From assembly GCA_019218315.1 (NCBI GenBank), contig JAHUUI010000002.1, forward strand, positions 434,001 through 498,000: a stretch of DNA of 64,000 bases. Direction: 5' to 3'. Position numbers and translations under genes: made by a program. This DNA comes from Cardiobacteriaceae bacterium TAE3-ERU3 (lineage in GTDB: Bacteria; Pseudomonadota; Gammaproteobacteria; Cardiobacteriales; Cardiobacteriaceae). Of the stretch, positions 13,040 through 52,732 are shown one piece after another. The notes under the pieces were generated by a model. It searched no databases and was not told the DNA's origin. It worked only from the letters and a program-made list of their open reading frames with translations. Every line of letters starts with the position of its first letter. Position 1 is the stretch's first letter.

Positions 13040-13294
13040 TCACGCTACGAGTGGCTTAAGTTTCTCTCTCAGTGCTTTATAGTCATCATCAAGTGATGGG
13101 AAAACCACGCTATAGCCGTCTGCACCATGTTCGACAGCGGCTTTATACGCTTTTTCATCAGCTGTACTTGCATCGTAGTACTCACCGACCAAGCGCTTCA
13201 CAAAGCAGCTAGCACCAGCTTCCAGCGCCTCCGGTGTTGGTGGCACTGGAAGGAAAACCACGGCTAGATATGGGAGGGTGTCGATGATATTCAT
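13040..13294 (-). CDS. Small protein coupled to the Rha antirepressor
   Basis: An 84-residue protein of unknown function. Its ATG at 13294 overlaps the antirepressor stop (ATGA) and has a GAGGAGG ribosome site, so the two are co-translated. The N-terminus is hydrophobic (about residues 5-20, YLAVVFLPVPPTPEAL), the rest is mixed and acidic. In immI-like operons small accessory genes often ride with the antirepressor. No family is recognised. Confidence 0.5.
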   Translation of the reverse strand: MNIIDTLPYLAVVFLPVPPTPEALEAGASCFVKRLVGEYYDASTADEKAYKAAVEHGADGYSVVFPSLDDDYKALREKLKPLVA

Positions 13295-14040
13295 ACTGGC
13301 GCCTCCTCGGTTGCAAACTTGTTCTGGAAGTATTGCAATCCTTTGGCTGTAACCATGCACTGCTGAGTTACTTTTTCTGTTCCGTCGGGTCTCGCAATTG
13401 TTGTCGATTTGACATCCAGTAAACCTTTTTGGGTAGCAGACGAATACGGCAACCAAACACCAGCACTAGGTGAGCGATAAATATATCCGTGTTCATGAAG
13501 CAGCAAATTAAACCTTTTAGGGGGCAATCCAGCCTGCTTAGCCGCATCACGAAGGCAGAACCAACCATCAGCGCGAGCATGGCGCTCGGCGAACTGAACT
13601 TTTGGTTTATCAAGCTCTATTTGAGCCGCCAACTTCTGTTTTTCTTCCTCGGCATCAAGCGCTATCCTAAGAATCTCACTACGAGACATCTGTGCTGGAT
13701 CGAAACGATGACGAAGTTGTTCACGTGCTTCAAAAAATGCCTTAACCAATGACATTTTGAATTTACGAACTATCTCGGTATTCTTCAGATAGGTAATAAG
13801 TAAAGTTGATTGCGGCTCATTCAGAATCGCGTATTCTGTTGGACGCCCTCCGGACTTCCGCGTTTCAAACGCCAAAGTTCCAAAAAGCTGTAAATCCTCT
13901 AAATATTTCCGTGTGAGTTCCATCACATTTTTATGTTGAACCTCTGTACCTTCAGCAATTGCCAACGAGGTTGTAGTAGGCTCATCATTAACAATGCTGA
14001 TTAATGGAATATTCACCGTAAGTTTGCTATCATCTTTCAT
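13291..14040 (-). CDS. Rha-family antirepressor (immI-like module A)
   Basis: The 249-residue protein has an N-terminal phage regulatory Rha domain (SLAIAEGTEVQHKNVMELTRKY, then FETRKSGGRPTEYAILNE). A helical linker follows, then a C-terminal KilAC/ANT-type domain (FCLRDAAKQAGLPPKRF). Such proteins bind and disable phage repressors. I choose ATG 14040 (AAGGAA site). An in-frame ATG at 14130 with AAGGAGG is an alternative that would read through the intergenic hairpin. A predicted opposite-strand RNA begins at the start codon of the 14040 choice, as for the antirepressor at 16010. Confidence 0.8.
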   Translation of the reverse strand: MKDDSKLTVNIPLISIVNDEPTTTSLAIAEGTEVQHKNVMELTRKYLEDLQLFGTLAFETRKSGGRPTEYAILNEPQSTLLITYLKNTEIVRKFKMSLVKAFFEAREQLRHRFDPAQMSRSEILRIALDAEEEKQKLAAQIELDKPKVQFAERHARADGWFCLRDAAKQAGLPPKRFNLLLHEHGYIYRSPSAGVWLPYSSATQKGLLDVKSTTIARPDGTEKVTQQCMVTAKGLQYFQNKFATEEAPV

Positions 14041-14105
14041 GTTAGTTCCTTTGCTATATGGTTCTAATGAGGCTGCGGCAAGTTTGGCGACTCCGCGGCC
14101 TTTTT
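14040..14105 (+). ncRNA. Predicted Sar-like antisense RNA A
   Basis: An extended -10 element TGC-TATCAT lies at 14025-14033, ending 7 bases before the antirepressor start codon complement. A plus-strand terminator (GGCTGCGG / CCGCGGCC, then TTTTT) lies at 14071-14105. The implied RNA of about 66 nt covers the antirepressor start codon and AAGGAA site in antisense. P22 Sar RNA, of similar length, controls ant from the same position. The geometry is identical to antisense RNA B. No -35 is evident and expression is unproven. Confidence 0.55.
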
Positions 14106-14110
14106 CGTTT

Positions 14111-14281
14111 CTATGCGATTGCTTTCCCATTATCAGCCTCCTTTTCGGCTTCGGCAAACTCTCTAAGCATCTTATTTATATAGTAAGACATGGACTTCCC
14201 GTTCTTTGCTGAATGAATTTTCAAAAAAACTTTCAAATCTTTGTCGATCAAGAATGATGAGTTAACCTGTTTTTGTTCCAT
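14111..14281 (-). CDS. Ribbon-helix-helix (Arc/Mnt-type) regulator, module A
   Basis: The 56-residue protein starts MEQKQVNSSFLIDKDLKVF and continues with a helix KSMSYYINKMLREFAEAE. This is the strand-helix-helix pattern of Arc/Mnt repressors. The ATG has a GGAG site at 6 bases. It is the first gene of the antirepressor operon and is transcribed divergently from the repressor at 14394, the same arrangement as the pair at 16081/16372. Its probable role is to repress its own operon and thus antirepressor synthesis, like Arc and Mnt in P22. Confidence 0.75.
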   Translation of the reverse strand: MEQKQVNSSFLIDKDLKVFLKIHSAKNGKSMSYYINKMLREFAEAEKEADNGKAIA

Positions 14282-14393: not shown

Positions 14394-15029
14394 ATGAGCC
14401 TCAACGATACACGCCCCCATGAGAGCCTAGGTCAACGTATAAAACAGCGCCGACTTGAATTAAATATGTCGCTTCGTGATCTTTCTGAAAAGGTCGGCAT
14501 GTCGCACACCGCACTAAATACTATTGAAAAAGACAAAGTTGAAAACTCTCGCTACATAATCGAAATAGCAGATGCCCTTGGCGTTACACAGCAATGGCTT
14601 CTTACTGGCAGCGGGATGAAAGAGAAACAATTTTTTTCTTTCGCCCCACTAATCACGATGGAACAAGCAGCATCGTTTACAAGCATTAATGACCTAGACC
14701 TAGATGAAAATACACGCTGGTTCCCTACAGTCTATGACTACAAAGACCAATGTTTTGCGCTGGTTTCTGAAGGAACAAGCATGGAAAATCCTGCCGACCC
14801 CCACCATATACCGAGTGGTAGCTACGTAATATTTAACGCCGCTAACAAAAACCCTGATTCAGGCCAACTGGTTTTAGCTAAGCTCGATAAGCTCGATGAG
14901 GCAACTTTCAAGAAACTTGTTATCGAAGGTACAAACAGATACCTAGAGCCGCTCAACCCACGCTATCCGATAATCACAGATGACTTTACGATAATAGCCA
15001 CTGCTGTATCGCTTATTGGCATGCTATAG
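14394..15029 (+). CDS. S24-type repressor without an obvious cleavage site, module A
   Basis: The 211-residue protein has an XRE helix-turn-helix at about residues 12-70 (LGQRIKQRRLELNMSLRDL) and a LexA/CI-type C-terminal domain with the serine in EGTSMENPADP and a lysine in the LAKLDKLDEATF region. The usual Ala-Gly or Cys-Gly autocleavage dipeptide is not visible in the linker; the matching region reads ITMEQAASF. It may therefore resist RecA-driven cleavage and depend on the antirepressor for inactivation. It is divergent from the ribbon-helix-helix gene. The C-terminal third is very similar to the main repressor at 40065. Confidence 0.85.
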   Translation: MSLNDTRPHESLGQRIKQRRLELNMSLRDLSEKVGMSHTALNTIEKDKVENSRYIIEIADALGVTQQWLLTGSGMKEKQFFSFAPLITMEQAASFTSINDLDLDENTRWFPTVYDYKDQCFALVSEGTSMENPADPHHIPSGSYVIFNAANKNPDSGQLVLAKLDKLDEATFKKLVIEGTNRYLEPLNPRYPIITDDFTIIATAVSLIGML

Positions 15030-15044
15030 GGGGCTTTGTTACTT

Positions 15045-15084
15045 ACAAAAAAGCCCCGACTTTCGTCGAGGCTTGGTTAAAATC
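15045..15084 (-). terminator. Antirepressor-module terminator, copy 2
   Basis: Identical over 40 bases to 12989-13028. Read on the minus strand it ends the P22-type antirepressor transcript. Confidence 0.8.
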
Positions 15085-15092
15085 TGTTGTCT

Positions 15093-16010
15093 TTACCGAG
15101 AGGCAAACCATTCAGCTGCTTTCTCTCGCCCTTCTCTACGCTCTTCGTCGTTATGGCACAGTTTGAACTGCGCTTCTGATAGTGCGGTGTAAACGCGAGC
15201 GCCATTGTGCGTTGCTGTTCCGAGTAGCCTCATAATCCGCTCAGCCATGATGGACATATCAGCGGCCATATCCCAAGCCTTGCGTATTTGTCCGCTTTGT
15301 TCCTTGTACTGCGCAAATCCACTGTCTAGCAGGTAAATGCCGTTAACTCGCAACTCTCTCGCTTTCTCAGCAGTGTATTGGTTCTCTTGGCGTGGTAAAA
15401 GTTCACCATGTAATGCCTCTACAGAATGGCGGCTGATGATTGAAAGTGCCTCAGCATATTCTGACTGTGGAATATCTCGATACTTAACTCCAAAATGTGC
15501 TTTAAGCTTCGACCAGCCCTGTACCATAAATTTACCCTGTGACGCCTTTGGCAACTTTTCAGCAGTTTCTCGAAGCATGTCACGTAGTGCATCACCTTGT
15601 TCAAGTGTCAGGGTGTCACTTGGATTCACGCTGTACTCAAACCGAGGGTTTGTTGCTTGTCCTTTGTGCCAGTAGTTATACAGTGCTTGGTAACATTCGC
15701 GCTTATACATAATCAGGGTTTCGCGAATTTCAGCTTTAACACGTTTTACGTCAATGCCAAATAACCAGCCATTCAAGTATTCGATTGGTAAGCAAAGCAT
15801 TTTTTGCTCACCTCCGCCAGAAGGTATTGCCATGATGGCAATACCTTCGCTCAATACCTCATCACGCTTGATACGGCGAAATTGAGCGTCCCACTGTAGC
15901 CCTATATTGTCACAAATTGGCTTCATAGCGGTGTAATGAGTGCCATCTTGTTCAATGGTTAAAAGTGGTTGACCGTGGAAATCTACGGTTTGGATGCTAT
16001 AATTAGTCAT
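15093..16010 (-). CDS. P22-type antirepressor (immI-like module B)
   Basis: The 305-residue protein has the P22 antirepressor N-terminal domain: VDFHGQPLLTIEQDG, MKPICDNIGLQWDAQFRRIK, then LPIEYLNGWLFGIDVKRVK. A helical C-terminal half follows. Proteins of this family bind CI-like repressors and block operator binding, triggering induction without cleavage. The ATG at 16010 has an AAGGAA site. An extended -10 promoter on the opposite strand lies within codons 3-5, and a plus-strand terminator lies between this gene and the upstream ribbon-helix-helix gene, predicting an antisense RNA over the ribosome site. Confidence 0.88.
   Translation of the reverse strand: MTNYSIQTVDFHGQPLLTIEQDGTHYTAMKPICDNIGLQWDAQFRRIKRDEVLSEGIAIMAIPSGGGEQKMLCLPIEYLNGWLFGIDVKRVKAEIRETLIMYKRECYQALYNYWHKGQATNPRFEYSVNPSDTLTLEQGDALRDMLRETAEKLPKASQGKFMVQGWSKLKAHFGVKYRDIPQSEYAEALSIISRHSVEALHGELLPRQENQYTAEKARELRVNGIYLLDSGFAQYKEQSGQIRKAWDMAADMSIMAERIMRLLGTATHNGARVYTALSEAQFKLCHNDEERREGREKAAEWFASR
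15995..16003 (+). promoter_or_regulatory. Extended -10 promoter for antisense RNA B
   Basis: TGC-TATAAT is a consensus extended -10 element on the strand opposite the antirepressor. It is placed so that transcription would start at about 16010, on the antirepressor start codon. A TTGACC lies upstream, but at 23 bases the spacing is too long for a standard -35. Confidence 0.6.
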
Positions 16011-16079
16011 AACGATTCCTTATTTTAGAGTTGGGATTGTTAAAGGTCACAGGGTCGCCAAACTGCTGTGGCCTTTTTT
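16010..16079 (+). ncRNA. Predicted Sar-like antisense RNA B
   Basis: From the promoter at 15995-16003 to the terminator at 16042-16079 (arms AAAGGTCACAG and CTGTGGCCTTT, then six T) the RNA would be about 70 nt. P22 Sar is about 69 nt, and its terminator also lies in the gap between arc and ant. It would be fully complementary to the antirepressor ribosome site and start codon. The loop contains GTCGCCAAACT, the exact complement of the loop of RNA A. The prediction rests on sequence only. Confidence 0.65.
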
Positions 16080-16080
16080 G

Positions 16081-16251
16081 TTACTGGGTGATTGGATTCT
16101 TGTCACTCGCTTCCTCCTGATTAATAAATGCTTCAATGGCCTTACGGACGACGTAAGTAAGCGGTCGGTCGTGCTTTTCGCTGTACTCGACTAACCAATT
16201 CTTTACTTCCGATGGCATTGTCACTAGGATTCGATCATTAAGGTGTCGCAT
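16081..16251 (-). CDS. Ribbon-helix-helix (Arc/Mnt-type) regulator, module B
   Basis: The 56-residue protein starts MRHLNDRILVTMPSEVKNWL and continues RPLTYVVRKAIEAFI, the typical beta-strand plus two helices of ribbon-helix-helix repressors. A strong AAAGGAGT ribosome site precedes ATG 16251. It is the same length as the module A protein but diverged in sequence. It lies upstream of the P22-type antirepressor and divergent from the repressor at 16372, so it is the likely Mnt/Arc equivalent. Confidence 0.75.
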   Translation of the reverse strand: MRHLNDRILVTMPSEVKNWLVEYSEKHDRPLTYVVRKAIEAFINQEEASDKNPITQ

Positions 16252-16311: not shown

Positions 16312-16348
16312 TTACAACGTATTACAACGTTTAACATCGTTGTATAAT
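16312..16348. promoter_or_regulatory. Divergent operator region, module B
   Basis: It contains a 10-base direct repeat (TTACAACGTA, then TTACAACGTT) at 16312-16331 and an inverted repeat ACAACG-N8-CGTTGT at 16324-16343. A consensus -10 (TATAAT, 16343-16348) lies on the plus strand for the repressor. The overlapping repeats suggest autoregulation by the repressor and/or the ribbon-helix-helix protein. Confidence 0.6.
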
Positions 16349-16371: not shown

Positions 16372-17010
16372 ATGCGGAAAAATATTATTTGGTATCGCCT
16401 TCAATCTAAACGACTTGAGGCTGGCCTAACACAAACTGACTTAGCAAAAGCTGTTGGGCGAACGCCACAATGGGTAAGTAAACTTGAGTCTGGCAAAACT
16501 AACACGATTGATAAAGATGATCTTGATCGGATTGCTAAAGTATTACATATACACTCCGAGGAATTGCTAACTGACTTTGACTTCACAGATGTAAATGACT
16601 TAAAGAACCAATATATTGCTCTCCCTCATATATCTGATTCGGGTCAGATCAGCAACGAACACACACCTTTCCCAGAAACCCTAATCAGGAAATATTTTGG
16701 TCGGCCAAATAACCTTGCACTTTTCCATCAGCAAAGTGGCTCCATGTCGCCTACTATTGATCATGGTGATGATGTCATCATTGACCTTTCTGAAACCACA
16801 ATTAAAGACGATCTTGCTATTTATTTATTCCAAAACTTCGCTGGCGATATAGTTTTTTTGAAACGAATTCATATAAGACCGCAAGGTGGATATGTCATTA
16901 AGAGCGATGCAGGCGATATCTTCACAGACATGATCATCACTAAAGAAGAAGCTAAAGAAATGAAGGTTATTGGCAAAGCTCTAGGCCGATTTAGCATCAA
17001 AACATTTTGA
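16372..17010 (+). CDS. S24-type repressor, module B
   Basis: The 212-residue protein has an N-terminal XRE helix-turn-helix (about residues 10-62, RLEAGLTQTDLAKAVGRTPQ). The C-terminal peptidase-S24-like domain has the serine in SGSMSPTIDHGD and the lysine in IVFLKRIH. No clear Ala-Gly cleavage dipeptide is visible. I prefer ATG 16372; a TTG at 16357 is in frame. There is no strong ribosome site, so the leader may be short. It is the second extra repressor in this block, only distantly related to the one at 14394. Confidence 0.82.
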   Translation: MRKNIIWYRLQSKRLEAGLTQTDLAKAVGRTPQWVSKLESGKTNTIDKDDLDRIAKVLHIHSEELLTDFDFTDVNDLKNQYIALPHISDSGQISNEHTPFPETLIRKYFGRPNNLALFHQQSGSMSPTIDHGDDVIIDLSETTIKDDLAIYLFQNFAGDIVFLKRIHIRPQGGYVIKSDAGDIFTDMIITKEEAKEMKVIGKALGRFSIKTF

Positions 17011-20490: not shown

Positions 20491-20679
20491 ATGGCGAAAA
20501 CACGTACTGAAATTCAACAAAAAAGCGACGAAAAGCGAGGCGTTAAGGTCAAAGGGTTAAAAATGTCTCTCGATGATATAGCCCTTCTTGAGCGCCTTGC
20601 TGAGCAACTTGGGAAGCCCCAGGCGACCATAGTAGCTGACGCACTGCATTTCTACGCTGAAGCATTAGACAAGAAGTAA
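20491..20679 (+). CDS. Small ribbon-helix-helix-like protein
   Basis: The 62-residue protein has a basic N-terminus and a VKVKGLKMSLDDIALLERLAEQLG segment followed by a helix PQATIVADALHFYAEAL. This pattern is consistent with ribbon-helix-helix antitoxins or regulators. It is convergent with the KilA-N gene, 4 bases apart. It may belong with hicAB or be a stand-alone regulator. Confidence 0.5.
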   Translation: MAKTRTEIQQKSDEKRGVKVKGLKMSLDDIALLERLAEQLGKPQATIVADALHFYAEALDKK

Positions 20680-20683
20680 AGGA

Positions 20684-21517
20684 TCATACAGCTAATCCAC
20701 TCGTATAAACGATGCTCAGCTGTCCACTCTTTCGCATGACCGTATTCATGCGTGATTCAAAATCTTGCAGGCTTGATGATGATGCGGCAATGTCAGTGAC
20801 GCGCTGGATTTGCTTATCCAGTTCAGCCTTGCCGCCATCGGTAAGCCATTGGTGCATTTTCTCTGATTGGTGTTTGCGGGCTTTTAGTTCAGCATATACT
20901 TCTTTCGGCAGGATGCAGCCATAAACCCACTTGTCTGTCAGATTACCGTAGATTGCAGGAGTGCCGCCGCTGTGTCCGGTGTACTTCGTACCAGTAATAC
21001 GCGCCAATGCGTGGTAATACTCGTCGTGGAAGCGTAATTCCCACTCAGCAACATCAGGACGCAATAGCAACGGGATGAGGTGCGAGAAGCTGTTCATCTG
21101 CAAGCCGTTGCGGATGATGGCGTCTATTTGCATATCGCACCAAACGGCAAATTTAATATCCAGCCAACGTGCAAACGCAACTGCCAGCTTTGGATGGAAC
21201 CAAGTCCCACCGCCTACTTCTGACGGTCCTGACTTTGCATAAACCAAACCTGTTTTCTTAGCCAAACGGAGTAGCTTGGCTCTCGAACTAGCCGAAGACC
21301 CATCTAATATACTGATTTCCTTAAACTGTTGCAGAAAGTCACTTTTACCGCCCATCTGCTCGTATAAGGCAGCAAGATACTCAACTGTATCTCGCTGATT
21401 CATCCACTCAACAGGACGTTTGCCAAATCGCGCAGCCGCCTCGGTCGCATTAAACCAGCCATCAAGATTAAAACTCTGTGGCTGATTTTGGTATTCAAAC
21501 TTGATTATCTTTGCCAT
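20684..21517 (-). CDS. KilA-N domain antirepressor-like protein
   Basis: The 277-residue protein has an N-terminal KilA-N DNA-binding domain: FNLDGWFNATEAAARFGKRP, then GGGTWFHPKLAVAFARWLDI. The C-terminal half is helical and basic (KEVYAELKARKHQSEK). Start 21517 has a TGGAG site. Relatives in lambdoid phages act as antirepressors or regulators. It is the first gene of the moron block after the tail chaperone. Confidence 0.8.
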   Translation of the reverse strand: MAKIIKFEYQNQPQSFNLDGWFNATEAAARFGKRPVEWMNQRDTVEYLAALYEQMGGKSDFLQQFKEISILDGSSASSRAKLLRLAKKTGLVYAKSGPSEVGGGTWFHPKLAVAFARWLDIKFAVWCDMQIDAIIRNGLQMNSFSHLIPLLLRPDVAEWELRFHDEYYHALARITGTKYTGHSGGTPAIYGNLTDKWVYGCILPKEVYAELKARKHQSEKMHQWLTDGGKAELDKQIQRVTDIAASSSSLQDFESRMNTVMRKSGQLSIVYTSGLAV

Positions 21518-21532
21518 GTTTACTCCAGACAA

Positions 21533-32200: not shown

Positions 32201-32932
32201 CTACCGTGCAGCGAAGCGTGCTCTCATTAACGTTCCCCACGGTTTATTAAAATCATCTGCTTCTGAAATCAGCTGCTGCTTATATTTCCCGACCAGTCCA
32301 TCTTTAACGATGATGACATGCTCGCCATCCTTGCGAGTATCAATCGGCACCATCACAACATGTGGCGGTGGCAATTCGTCTACAGGCTGTAAATGGCGCT
32401 CTTGCAAACCGCGTGTTTGCTCGCTGATATTCAGAAAGCGGCAAGCATCCGAATAGCGCTCTTTTCTAATCTCTCGCACCGATGCCGCTTGAACATAGGC
32501 GAACAGCTCATGATAGACCGCTTGCCAGTGTTTACCTGTCCGATACACCATTTCGCGAACGCCCTGCTTGATGTGAACCAGCTGTTCATCGTTGATGTAT
32601 GGTGACGGTGCGACCGTGGCAAGAAATGCTCGAATGACGGCAAGATGCACAATCGCATCAATCCAAGCACCATAGGCTACTACGATCTCTTTACAGGCGT
32701 ATGTGCCACCGTTTACTCCGCGTACTATTTTGATAGATTCGGAAAGTTGCAGATTTGCACCTTTATTGATTTCATTATCAATTTCGGCGATTAATGCTTG
32801 GGTTTGTTCATTTCTCAGAAAGAACGCTGGCTTGTGCTTTACTTCACCGCCTGCTGCTTTGTGCAGGTCGTTGAGAGAGTAAAGACCGTCGATGCAACGA
32901 ATGTTGGTATCGAGAATGGATAGTTTAGCCAT
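32201..32932 (-). CDS. KilA-N antirepressor under c4-like leader
   Basis: The 243-residue protein has an N-terminal KilA-N domain (IRCIDGLYSLNDLHKAAGG, then VNGGTYACKEIVVAYGAWID) and a C-terminal antirepressor-like region (VREIRKERYSDACRFLNI). Start 32932 has an AAGGAG site. The leader contains a structured element with a loop complementary to this ribosome site, as in P1/P7 c4-controlled ant genes. Confidence 0.82.
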   Translation of the reverse strand: MAKLSILDTNIRCIDGLYSLNDLHKAAGGEVKHKPAFFLRNEQTQALIAEIDNEINKGANLQLSESIKIVRGVNGGTYACKEIVVAYGAWIDAIVHLAVIRAFLATVAPSPYINDEQLVHIKQGVREMVYRTGKHWQAVYHELFAYVQAASVREIRKERYSDACRFLNISEQTRGLQERHLQPVDELPPPHVVMVPIDTRKDGEHVIIVKDGLVGKYKQQLISEADDFNKPWGTLMRARFAAR

Positions 32933-32977
32933 GACTGACTCCTTATGTTTTAGTTTAGTATCGCCACATAATAGGGT

Positions 32978-33053
32978 GGCGGGCCTCAACTACCGACATA
33001 AGACGGCTGGCGGTATTTCCCGAAGGTGTTTTATTTCCGCCTATCAACCCGCC
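32978..33053 (-). ncRNA. c4-like antisense RNA candidate
   Basis: On the minus strand a 76-nt region closes with GGCGGG / CCCGCC. It contains an internal stem GGCGG / CCGCC and a third small stem (GCCG / CGGU) with loop UCUUAUGU. CUUAUGU (complement at 32996-33002) pairs perfectly with ACAUAAG at the antirepressor ribosome site (32942-32948). Three stems plus an anti-Shine-Dalgarno loop directly upstream of an antirepressor is the c4 arrangement of phages P1 and P7. A 13-base copy of the target (CTTATGTTTTAGT) also occurs further upstream at about 33136. Confidence 0.6.
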
Positions 33054-38907: not shown

Positions 38908-39182
38908 GCCGTGCCTCCGTACGATTCAGGGTCAATCCATCCCTCAGCAATCCAAGGTGGGTTAGGCGCTGGCATCCAGCACACAACAACATCAATCTCA
39001 TAAACATCGCCTGTTAATTCGCCGTAGCCATTCCAACCATTTGCTGCAATAAATCGCTCGCTTTCGCTGTCATAGAATCCGCAATAAACTTTGCTCCCGA
39101 CCACAAAATTCAAATACATGTCGCATTCAGGTATCTGTTCGCTTGTGCTCAGCCATTGACCGAATTTCGTTTCTTGTGTCAT
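38904..39182 (-). CDS. DUF551-like small early protein
   Basis: The 92-residue protein has FGQWLSTSEQIPECDMYLNF, then GSKVYCGFYDSESERF and VCWMPAPNPPW. The pattern is of DUF551-type phage proteins. Start 39182 is chosen for its AGGAG site. Function unknown. Confidence 0.55.
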   Translation of the reverse strand: MTQETKFGQWLSTSEQIPECDMYLNFVVGSKVYCGFYDSESERFIAANGWNGYGELTGDVYEIDVVVCWMPAPNPPWIAEGWIDPESYGGTA

Positions 39183-39195
39183 AATCACTCCTGTC

Positions 39196-39768
39196 CTATC
39201 GCGCGTTTCCATGCGCGTGTTGAAGCCGCTGCCCTACAGCGGCTTTTTTATTTTCCAAGTCGTCAGCCATCGCATTTGCTGCGGCGGCCGCTTCTCGAAG
39301 CTCTTTAATCTGTGCGTTAACGTCACTGCCAGACATGGCAATTAATCCCTCGCCGATTTCCTTCATCACTGTTTCCGGCGTGATTGCGTCATTACTGGCT
39401 TGCCCTATACCGACCGTAATGCAGCCAAGCCGCTGATTCAGCGCGTACAACAGCGCGCATCTACGGTCATCCGGTAATGCCAAAATCAGAGCGTCTTCAA
39501 TCTCGACTGGCAAACGGCATGAACCACCGTCCAAATACCGCATGACTTTCTCGGCATCACGCTTGGTGCGCTCAAAAACGTCATCGCGAGTGCTAAATTC
39601 GATACAGCGCTGTGCTTCTGGTACTGTCGCGTGATATTGCTCGACTACGTTTGCAGCAAAGCTTTGTTGTGATGTTCCGGTCTCGCGCAGATATGCGCTG
39701 ATATGCTGCTCTATCAGCTTTGGGCGTGATAGCTGCGGACTGTGCCGCATTACATTGGCGTTAGGCAT
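39196..39768 (-). CDS. Early regulator in cII position
   Basis: A 190-residue protein of unknown family follows cro and overlaps it by 8 bases. It has a helical N-terminus (LIEQHISAYLRETGTSQQSF), a middle region LPDDRRCALLYALNQRLG and an Ala-rich C-terminal coiled coil. Lambdoid phages often carry cII-like or YdaT-type regulators here. Function is inferred from position only. Confidence 0.45.
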   Translation of the reverse strand: MPNANVMRHSPQLSRPKLIEQHISAYLRETGTSQQSFAANVVEQYHATVPEAQRCIEFSTRDDVFERTKRDAEKVMRYLDGGSCRLPVEIEDALILALPDDRRCALLYALNQRLGCITVGIGQASNDAITPETVMKEIGEGLIAMSGSDVNAQIKELREAAAAANAMADDLENKKAAVGQRLQHAHGNAR

Positions 39769-40064: not shown

Positions 40065-40700
40065 ATGAACATATCAACCCGAATCAAAGAGCGCATGGCT
40101 GCTCTAAATCTAAAATCCGTGGACGTCATGCGGGCTACAGGCGCATCTAAAGGCGCAATTAGCCAATGGCGCTCAGGGGAAGTTGCGCCAAGCGCACAAT
40201 ACGCTGGGAAACTCGCTGAAATATTGCAGTGTGACTACAACTGGCTTATTAACGGTGAAGGCGCAGACCCATCATTGAGTAACGTGGAAGATGGGCCGGA
40301 ACTTAAAAGCCGTATCCCTGTCATTGGATTTGCCACAGCTGGGGAATTCCAACATGTACGTGAACTAGAATCATATGAAGTTGAAGAATATATAGACAGT
40401 ACATTCGTCCAAAATGGATACCGCTTTGCACTACGGATAAACGGCACGAGTATGGAAAACCCTGCCGACCCAAAGCACATCCCCGACGGCAGCATTGTGA
40501 TTTTCAACGCATCAAAAAAAGAGCCTGAAACTGGTCAACTTGTGTTGGCTAAAGTAAATGGCGCGGATGAGACTACATTTAAAAAATTCGTCAGAGATGG
40601 GGAGCAAGTCTTTTTAGAACCGCTAAACCCACGATACCCGATCATCACTAAACCCTTCCGCGTGCTAGCAACAGCAGAAGAAATGACGAAGAGGCTGTAG
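40065..40700 (+). CDS. Main CI-type repressor
   Basis: The 211-residue protein has an XRE helix-turn-helix (about residues 5-60), an Ala-Gly cleavage site in FATAGEF (about residue 92), and the S24/LexA C-terminal domain with Ser in INGTSMENPADP and Lys in the VLAKVNGADETTF region. It is therefore SOS-inducible by RecA-stimulated self-cleavage. Its C-terminal domain is closely similar to that of the module A repressor. It should bind the OR and OL sites with consensus GTTTAG-N4-CTAAAC. Confidence 0.92.
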   Translation: MNISTRIKERMAALNLKSVDVMRATGASKGAISQWRSGEVAPSAQYAGKLAEILQCDYNWLINGEGADPSLSNVEDGPELKSRIPVIGFATAGEFQHVRELESYEVEEYIDSTFVQNGYRFALRINGTSMENPADPKHIPDGSIVIFNASKKEPETGQLVLAKVNGADETTFKKFVRDGEQVFLEPLNPRYPIITKPFRVLATAEEMTKRL

Positions 40701-47462: not shown

Positions 47463-48473
47463 TCAATCTACCAATGATGCAAGGTGCTCATCATCCGGTG
47501 CATAGTAGACATTGTGCAGAATATTAACGTCACGATGTCCACTGATTTTAGCCAAGTCCATCGGGTTAGGAATGATTTTAGCCAGTCTACTCAATGCCTC
47601 GTGCCGTGTGTCGTGGAAACGAATATGCGACAAATCATCAGGTCGGTATTTGCGATAGTTTGCATCAATCTCACTTCCTGTTATCGGCACTGGTCTATCG
47701 CCATCCGGCAACAACGCCCACAATTCTCGCGCAGCTTTTGAAAACGGTACTTGCCGATCATCACCATTTTTTGTGTCACGCAACGTAGCCATCTGTCGCC
47801 CGTTACTCGTAGTTCTAATATCGTCCCACTCAAGCTTGCAGATTTCACTTGCTCGCATCGCTGTTTCGACTGCGAACAAAACCGCCCATGCAACATAATG
47901 TTTTACCAGAACTGGCGATTGCCCTCTCGCATATCCCATAGCTGTAATGATCCGATCGATATCGTCATCTGTGATTCTTTGGTTACGAGCCTTGCCCTTC
48001 GGCGGCCTAGCTAGTTGGGTAAACGGATTAACTTTAATCGGCAATGCCCAATATCTCATTGCATAAGTCATAACGGCGGACAAATATGCCCACTCTCGGT
48101 TTACTGTCGAGCCTGTGACAGTTTTTAACCTGTCGTCCCTCCATCGGGCAACATCGTATCGAGAAACCTCGGTAACAGTTTTACTCACGAACTCAGGGTA
48201 ATCACGCATTGTGCGCTCAAAGAACTTCTTTTCTCGTCCTCCACTCTTCTTTGTCGGGCTGACTTCTCGCATGTAACGACGGATGAGAGCATAAAAAGGG
48301 AGCTTATCCAACTCGCGCATTAAGGCCTCATCGCCATCTTCAATCTGCGCTTCAATAGACCGCGCCCAGATTTCTGCTTCGCGTTTTGTGTTAAAGTACT
48401 TTGATCGGGATTTATGCCCCTTACGCCGAACTTGGCAACGCCAACGTTTTCCGACCTTTGTATATGATGCCAT
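47463..48473 (-). CDS. int: Tyrosine-type integrase
   Basis: The 336-residue protein has an N-terminal arm-binding/SAM-like part (TKVGKRWRCQVRRKGHKSRSKYF, residues 1-70) and a catalytic domain with Arg in TAMRASEICKLEWDD, the HDTRHEALSRLAK box, His in SGHRDVNILHNV and the nucleophile Tyr in NVYYAP. The start is ATG 48473; 18 extra in-frame codons lie upstream. Its 5' end faces the chromosome. Confidence 0.93.
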   Translation of the reverse strand: MASYTKVGKRWRCQVRRKGHKSRSKYFNTKREAEIWARSIEAQIEDGDEALMRELDKLPFYALIRRYMREVSPTKKSGGREKKFFERTMRDYPEFVSKTVTEVSRYDVARWRDDRLKTVTGSTVNREWAYLSAVMTYAMRYWALPIKVNPFTQLARPPKGKARNQRITDDDIDRIITAMGYARGQSPVLVKHYVAWAVLFAVETAMRASEICKLEWDDIRTTSNGRQMATLRDTKNGDDRQVPFSKAARELWALLPDGDRPVPITGSEIDANYRKYRPDDLSHIRFHDTRHEALSRLAKIIPNPMDLAKISGHRDVNILHNVYYAPDDEHLASLVD

Positions 48474-48611
48474 TGTGGTGCAAATTTGGTGCAGTGTGGT
48501 TAGACGCAATACTAAACCAATACCCACTGAATGCCCACTGAAAACGGTTTTTTAATACGTCATCTGCACTACTGCTGTACACTAGACACACTTCGGGCGG
48601 GCCAAAATACC

Positions 48612-52112: not shown

Positions 52113-52390
52113 AGATTCGCCTGGATAAAAACAAAGGAGCCATTGTAAGAAAAAAGACCTGATATTGCACCTGTGGAATGTATTGAACTTAACATTTGCT
52201 CAAAAACTTTTAAGGTAAATACACGCTATGGATGAATCAGATATACACAGATCATTTACCTGAAGGTCATTGGCTCTATTTGGCAAAATTATCTAACACG
52301 TCATTTGTTCATACGGATAGCAACGCCCTATTTATCCACAAAACCAAATAAAATAGTTTTTACACTAGCACTTTATTGGTATCAAGCATA
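52113..52390. other. Intergenic region upstream of ftsK
   Basis: About 280 AT-rich bases hold the 5' end of ftsK and the terminator-distal end of the RRM gene. I see no gene and no clear RNA structure here. The promoter for ftsK should lie here, but none stands out. Confidence 0.5.
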
Positions 52391-52427
52391 AAAAAAGCCC
52401 GTCGTGCTGAGCACGTCGGGCTTTTTT
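52391..52427. terminator. Bidirectional terminator after the RRM gene
   Basis: AAGCCCG(T)CGTGC and GCACG(T)CGGGCTT form a long stem with A- and T-runs on both sides. It lies 15 bases beyond the RRM gene stop. Confidence 0.85.
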
Positions 52428-52441
52428 ACAGTCGCTAAAAC

Positions 52442-52732
52442 TTAGTAGCGATTGTTGTAGCCGCCTTGGCTACGCGCAGGACGCTCTTCACGAGGACGAG
52501 CTTCATTAACACGTAGTGAACGGCCACCAAGCTCGAGGCCATTGCAAGCTTCGATTGCTTTATTGGCTGCGTCTTTTTCTGGCATTTCAACAAATCCAAA
52601 ACCCTTTGAGCGGCCAGTATCACGATCAGTGACGATGCTGGCACGGGCTACTTCGCCATGCTCGGCAAAGATGTCGCGCAACTGCGCTTCAGTGGTACTG
52701 TAGGCGAGGTTGCCGACGTAAATATTGACCAT
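52442..52732 (-). CDS. RRM-type RNA-binding protein
   Basis: The 96-residue protein has a single RRM with RNP2 IYVGNLAY and RNP1 KGFGFVEM, then an Arg/Gly-rich tail (EERPARSQGGYNNRY). It matches the small cold-inducible RNA-binding proteins of proteobacteria and cyanobacteria. I choose the second ATG (52732) because a GGAG lies 7 bases before it. Confidence 0.88.
   Translation of the reverse strand: MVNIYVGNLAYSTTEAQLRDIFAEHGEVARASIVTDRDTGRSKGFGFVEMPEKDAANKAIEACNGLELGGRSLRVNEARPREERPARSQGGYNNRY

Follow-up and report, generated by a model that had tools for sequence, protein, structure and literature searches.

An antirepressor gene can wake a prophage, and the locus described here raises the question of how such a gene might be kept silent. 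The window, that is, the whole stretch of 64,000 nucleotides analysed, covers most of a tailed-phage prophage, with tail and head genes on its left side and, by reading of the sequence, a CI-like repressor gene (40065–40700) and an integrase-like gene (47463–48527). Two similar modules lie in one regulatory insert flanked by tape-measure and tail-chaperone genes; searches gave no near relative of the locus as a whole. Our working hypothesis, in which we have good confidence, is that module B is a P22 immI-like module of this prophage in which an antisense RNA, here termed SarB, keeps translation of the antirepressor gene (ant) low. The features on which the argument draws are as follows.

13291–14040, minus strand: antirepressor A, 249 aa, with Rha and KilAC/ANT domains (Pfam PF09669, PF03374)
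14025–14033, plus strand: extended −10 (TGCTATCAT) of the proposed promoter Psar-A
14040–14105, plus strand: proposed SarA antisense RNA, about 66 nt, terminator at 14070–14105
14111–14281, minus strand: ribbon-helix-helix (RHH) protein A, 56 aa, Arc-like (PHROG Arc-like repressor, E = 5e-5)
14394–15029, plus strand: divergent HTH-S24 (CI-like) repressor A (domain search)
15093–16010, minus strand: antirepressor B, 305 aa, with a P22_AR_N domain (Pfam PF10547, E = 4e-39; PHROG anti-repressor Ant, E = 1e-60)
15995–16003, plus strand: extended −10 (TGCTATAAT) of the proposed promoter Psar-B, within ant codons 3–5 (promoter scan 10/12 with TG; extended −10 match 8/8)
16010–16079, plus strand: proposed SarB antisense RNA, about 69–70 nt, +1 at 16010/16011 (from −10 spacing, terminator, two-hairpin fold and comparison with P22 sar)
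16011–16041, plus strand: predicted SarB 5' hairpin (AACGATTCC...GGGATTGTT), bearing the complement of the ant Shine–Dalgarno sequence AAGGAA (z = −3.5 against shuffles)
16042–16079, plus strand: SarB intrinsic terminator, with an 11-bp stem, 13-nt loop and six T
16054–16064, plus strand: SarB loop segment GTCGCCAAACT, reverse-complementary without mismatch to the loop segment of module A at 14081–14091
16081–16251, minus strand: RHH protein B, 56 aa, Arc-like (PHROG Arc-like repressor, E = 1e-4)
16313–16344, strand unassigned: candidate operator, an imperfect palindrome in the interval between repressor B and RHH B
16378–17010, plus strand: divergent HTH-S24 (CI-like) repressor B (Pfam HTH_3, Peptidase_S24), in the position of P22 mnt

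An earlier, sequence-only reading had placed an extended −10 on the opposite strand within codons 3–5 of antirepressor B, and it is indeed there, with TGC at 15995–15997 and TATAAT at 15998–16003. The accompanying statement that this element ends seven bases before the start codon needs rewording: four bases lie between the hexamer and the start-codon triplet, whose complement (CAT) occupies 16008–16010, and it is the A of the ATG that is the seventh base after the hexamer. With this spacing, the +1 of SarB should lie at about that A, a sensible start position. The −35 of Psar-B is poor, and an extended −10 would not need one. The terminator that had been described in the gap to the RHH gene is present, its stem formed by AAAGGTCACAG (16042–16052) and CTGTGGCCTTT (16066–16076) around a loop at 16053–16065, with the T-run (16074–16079) ending just before the RHH B stop codon (16081–16083). 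Taken together, the −10 and terminator positions would give an RNA of 69–70 nt, in agreement with the predicted length of about 70 nt, the size of P22 Sar; the gene order, RHH followed by an antirepressor with a P22_AR_N domain, is also that of P22, as had been proposed. Module A repeats the geometry claimed for it (TGC-TATCAT, 14025–14033; CAT, 14038–14040; hairpin, 14070–14101; T-run to 14105), the RHH A stop codon beginning at 14111, past the SarA T-run, and the gap from RHH stop to ant start is 70 nt in both modules.

Some neighbouring features may be recorded here. The repressor B/RHH B interval contains, besides the palindrome, a repeated TTACAACG. The S24 C-terminal domains of repressor A and of the 40065–40700 repressor are visibly alike (GTSMENPADP..., EPLNPRYPIIT); an Ala-Gly in the latter could be a cleavage site, and none is obvious in repressor A. 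Possible extra antirepressor-type genes are found at 20491–21532, where a further small RHH-like ORF adjoins a KilA-N/P63C gene, and at 32201–32989, where a KilA-N-like ORF, recognized by eye, lies close to the lysis region.

Could such an arrangement arise by chance? The background comprised the window plus 20 stretches from its neighbourhood in the genome (454 kb), and gene starts were scored for an antisense extended −10 of at least 7/8 placed 2–5 bases before the start-codon complement, together with a terminator that scored 18 or higher. Of the 3,899 candidate gene starts scored there, four had an extended −10 of this quality at the right place, and only modules A and B combined it with such a terminator. 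A gene-blind scan of both strands of the 454 kb for an extended −10 and a terminator at small-RNA spacing gave five matches, two of which are A and B. Synonymous resampling that kept protein sequence and codon usage produced the −10 by chance with p = 0.10 for B and 0.12 for A; the −10 alone is thus unremarkable, and the evidence rests on its combination with terminator and position. The argument that the same geometry in module A makes chance unlikely holds for the combination, which is unique to A and B among the 3,899 starts, but not for the −10 by itself. Separately, an extended −10 (GTGTCATAAT) followed at small-RNA spacing by a strong terminator occurs at 39180–39250 (plus strand), away from gene starts, and possibly marks another small RNA.

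The arrangement also recurs elsewhere. Our survey drew on genome and viral collections and took in 129 distinct P22_AR_N ant loci; RHH genes were called by a home-made profile, and the start codons of relatives were picked by a heuristic. A Sar signature was present in 34/41 ant loci with an upstream RHH gene versus 15/88 without one (Fisher p = 7e-13, a value that overstates independence because the counts ignore relatedness among loci), and the RHH-to-ant gaps cluster at 65–81 nt, roughly the length of a Sar. Most named loci come from Enterobacterales, with Halomonas and Endozoicomonas in addition; Psychrobacter and Acinetobacter examples are among the loci where RHH was unrecognized. RHH protein B alone, used as a query against the viral contig collection, found no relatives. 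Sar signatures co-occur, then, with RHH–antirepressor operons in other phages, which indicates that a Sar control unit with little sequence in common probably accompanies these operons in many proteobacterial phages.

Sar-like units also precede Rha-type antirepressors, in module A, in viral contig L031 and in Morganella loci L109 and L123, with an RHH gene upstream in L031 and L123; among the other Rha-type loci examined, none had RHH by profile and none was convincing for Sar. Sar-like RNAs ahead of Rha-type antirepressors are a new point. In L050 and L085, the ORFs that follow a Sar-like match are small and membrane-protein-like.

One alternative to an antisense RNA is that the hairpin and T-run are a mere terminator of read-through from repressor A, shielding the RHH and repressor B genes, and that the −10 is fortuitous. 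Repressor A lies on the plus strand and the scan shows no plus-strand terminator just behind it, the hairpin at 15051–15074 having its T-run on the minus strand, so that plus-strand read-through over ant B is possible. We nevertheless consider this explanation improbable, since it accounts neither for a consensus extended −10 at the start of ant, some 40 bases ahead of the terminator, nor for the recurrence in module A and in 34 of the 41 RHH–ant loci.

The predicted fold bears on two further alternatives. In the terminator hairpin of 38 Sars, changes on both sides with pairing kept were found at 10 of 12 pairs. All 39 surveyed Sars examined for folding (39/39), and SarA and SarB as well, are predicted to be able to form a 5' hairpin followed by the terminator hairpin; the former begins at the 5' end or a few nucleotides from it (mean z = −1.9 relative to shuffled sequences; −3.5 for B and −1.7 for A), and in most Sars has near its apex a pyrimidine stretch complementary to the Shine–Dalgarno sequence. 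As the ant mRNA forms a similar stem, the hairpin might work in the sense transcript, as an RNA stabilizer or attenuator between RHH and ant, with the antisense promoter incidental; we regard this as very unlikely, because only three T follow the hairpin on the minus strand, whereas the T-run is on the plus strand in the window, and most relatives likewise have it on the antisense strand. Nor do we give much credence at all to the suggestion that the antisense promoter, which faces the RHH–ant operon, acts mainly by collision or interference with transcription of that operon rather than by RNA pairing: the antisense transcript would end within 70 nt, and collision would not need a stable two-hairpin RNA kept with compensatory changes.

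The terminator loops mostly take one of two inverse forms, UUNNNG (23/50) and CNNNAA (7/50), with further near variants; one or other form occurs in 30/50 loops versus 10.6 in shuffles. The existence of two mutually inverted loop forms is a new point. Sequence comparison suggests that the hairpin may have flipped during Sar evolution, and loop inversion may be a way for Sar specificity to change, the inverse loop classes suggesting a simple route to altered antisense specificity. Two pairs of whole hairpins match better inverted than direct, L077/L112 (28/32 identical after inversion) and L084/L031 (29/32).

The loops of SarA (UUGGCG) and SarB (CGCCAA) belong to opposite classes, and AGTTTGGCGAC and GTCGCCAAACT are exactly complementary over 11 nt. 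Very long odds at first attached to this 11-nt match were dropped once the inner stem and loop classes were counted. With the inner AGT/ACT stem and loop classes allowed for, about 6% of opposite-class pairs should have exactly complementary loops, and by duplex energy SarA–SarB comes only 27th among 820 Sar pairs; the match is accordingly only a lead and could be coincidence. The three other copies of GTCGCCAAACT in the genome, one of them within a 311-aa gene, have no Sar-like context in their adjacent flanks. Exact inverse complements would favour mutual pairing of the two loops over pairing with the other module's target, but that SarA and SarB do pair with each other, and that loop inversion lets two immunity modules share a genome, is in our view a doubtful proposition. 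With its two units side by side, this prophage would be well suited to studying cross-talk.

The Sar-like antisense RNA of the sequence-only reading is supported by the geometry of P22 sar, the gene order, the two-hairpin fold and the survey link with RHH. We infer that SarB is transcribed, pairs with and represses ant, and has a role in keeping the prophage silent, a SarB-type RNA being a predicted switch over the gene start. SarB would start at the ant start codon, cross the whole RHH–ant gap and stop at the intrinsic terminator just short of the RHH stop codon. Pairing with the ant 5' leader would extend along the entire SarB RNA, probably starting at its two hairpin loops; this would cover the Shine–Dalgarno sequence and keep ant translation low, and the RHH gene, upstream on the shared mRNA, would still be translatable. 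The RHH protein, with the S24 repressor encoded divergently, would set transcription of the operon, and Sar would set antirepressor translation.

As an antisense RNA, Sar is a textbook case, known from P22 and phages closely related to it. The Sar of P22 and SarB share strand, location in the interval that separates ant from an Arc-like RHH gene, and a −10 in ant codons 3–5 and, as far as predicted ends and fold go, a +1 at the start codon, a length of about 70 nt, a terminator at the RHH stop and two hairpins. The annotated P22 RNA is 70 nt long and lies between the start of ant and the end of arc, with its terminator at the arc stop as in the window, and the P22 order mnt, arc, sar, ant corresponds to that of the window modules. 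Run on P22, the same script finds TTGCTATACT ending three bases before CAT, compared with four in the window; TTGCTATACT three bases before CAT and a hairpin at the same place are common to P22, CUS-3, N7, UPF_BP1 and TL-2011b. The codon frame of the −10 differs accordingly (AGT-ATA-GCA in P22, AAT-TAT-AGC in the window), so that an inherited coding motif is no explanation for it. Ant proteins more similar to the one in the window are those of Pasteurellaceae, whose ant loci lack the P22-type −10 and hairpin. Further differences from P22 are the replacement of Mnt by an HTH-S24 repressor, the second Sar-like unit 2 kb away over a Rha-type antirepressor, and the terminator loop, CNNNAA in SarB being the inverse of UUNNNG in P22 sar. 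In P22, sar pairs with the ant mRNA and blocks translation initiation (reviewed in PMC12197685), and P22-like phages are described as carrying it within the ant moron (PMC2629481). A limited search of the open-access literature returned no account of Sar outside P22-like phages, which is not proof of absence.

The architecture of the Rfam family RF00262 is matched by SarB in antisense placement, −10 position, length of about 70 nt, two stem–loops and a 5' stem–loop with an anti-Shine–Dalgarno sequence, its ends and fold being predicted. The family model scores 97.8 bits on P22 itself and finds 11/20 further Sar-bearing loci close to P22, but matched 0/20 more divergent or candidate Sar loci, and in a 2.7-kb search the window RNAs did not reach its threshold of 43 bits and went undetected even at E = 5. 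A covariance model (R1) built from 38 other Sars, the window RNAs left out, has the terminator hairpin as its only paired part and found neither SarA nor SarB in the window; its best match there (52386–52459) resembles a plain terminator and was rejected. With all Rfam families, a tRNA was the sole match in the window. The window RNAs are thus Sar-like by architecture and not by sequence model; the Sar control unit appears to be in good part missed by Rfam and to extend to Rha-type antirepressors.

Small RNAs of other kinds are also associated with antirepressor genes. The c4 RNA of P1 and P7 is made from the ant sense strand upstream of ant and is cut from a longer transcript. Like c4, SarB is a small RNA repressing an antirepressor gene (in SarB, by prediction); unlike c4, it would have its own promoter on the opposite strand, and the window, with promoter and terminator on that strand, lacks the sense-strand position of c4. 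A third kind, sRNA-Xcc1 (RF02221), belongs to a different family from SarB, lies on the sense strand and is absent from the window by Rfam search; in the open-access literature we found no paper containing both 'sRNA-Xcc1' and 'antirepressor'. It lies directly upstream of P22_AR_N antirepressor genes at loci without RHH and Sar, namely in 20/20 of those tested (L045–L049, L051–L053, L055–L057, L059, L060, L064, L075, L076, L103, L016, L017 and L004), and occurs also in L050 and L085. Two RNA control units therefore seem to alternate before the same antirepressor family, ant coming either with RHH and Sar or with an Xcc1-type leader RNA.
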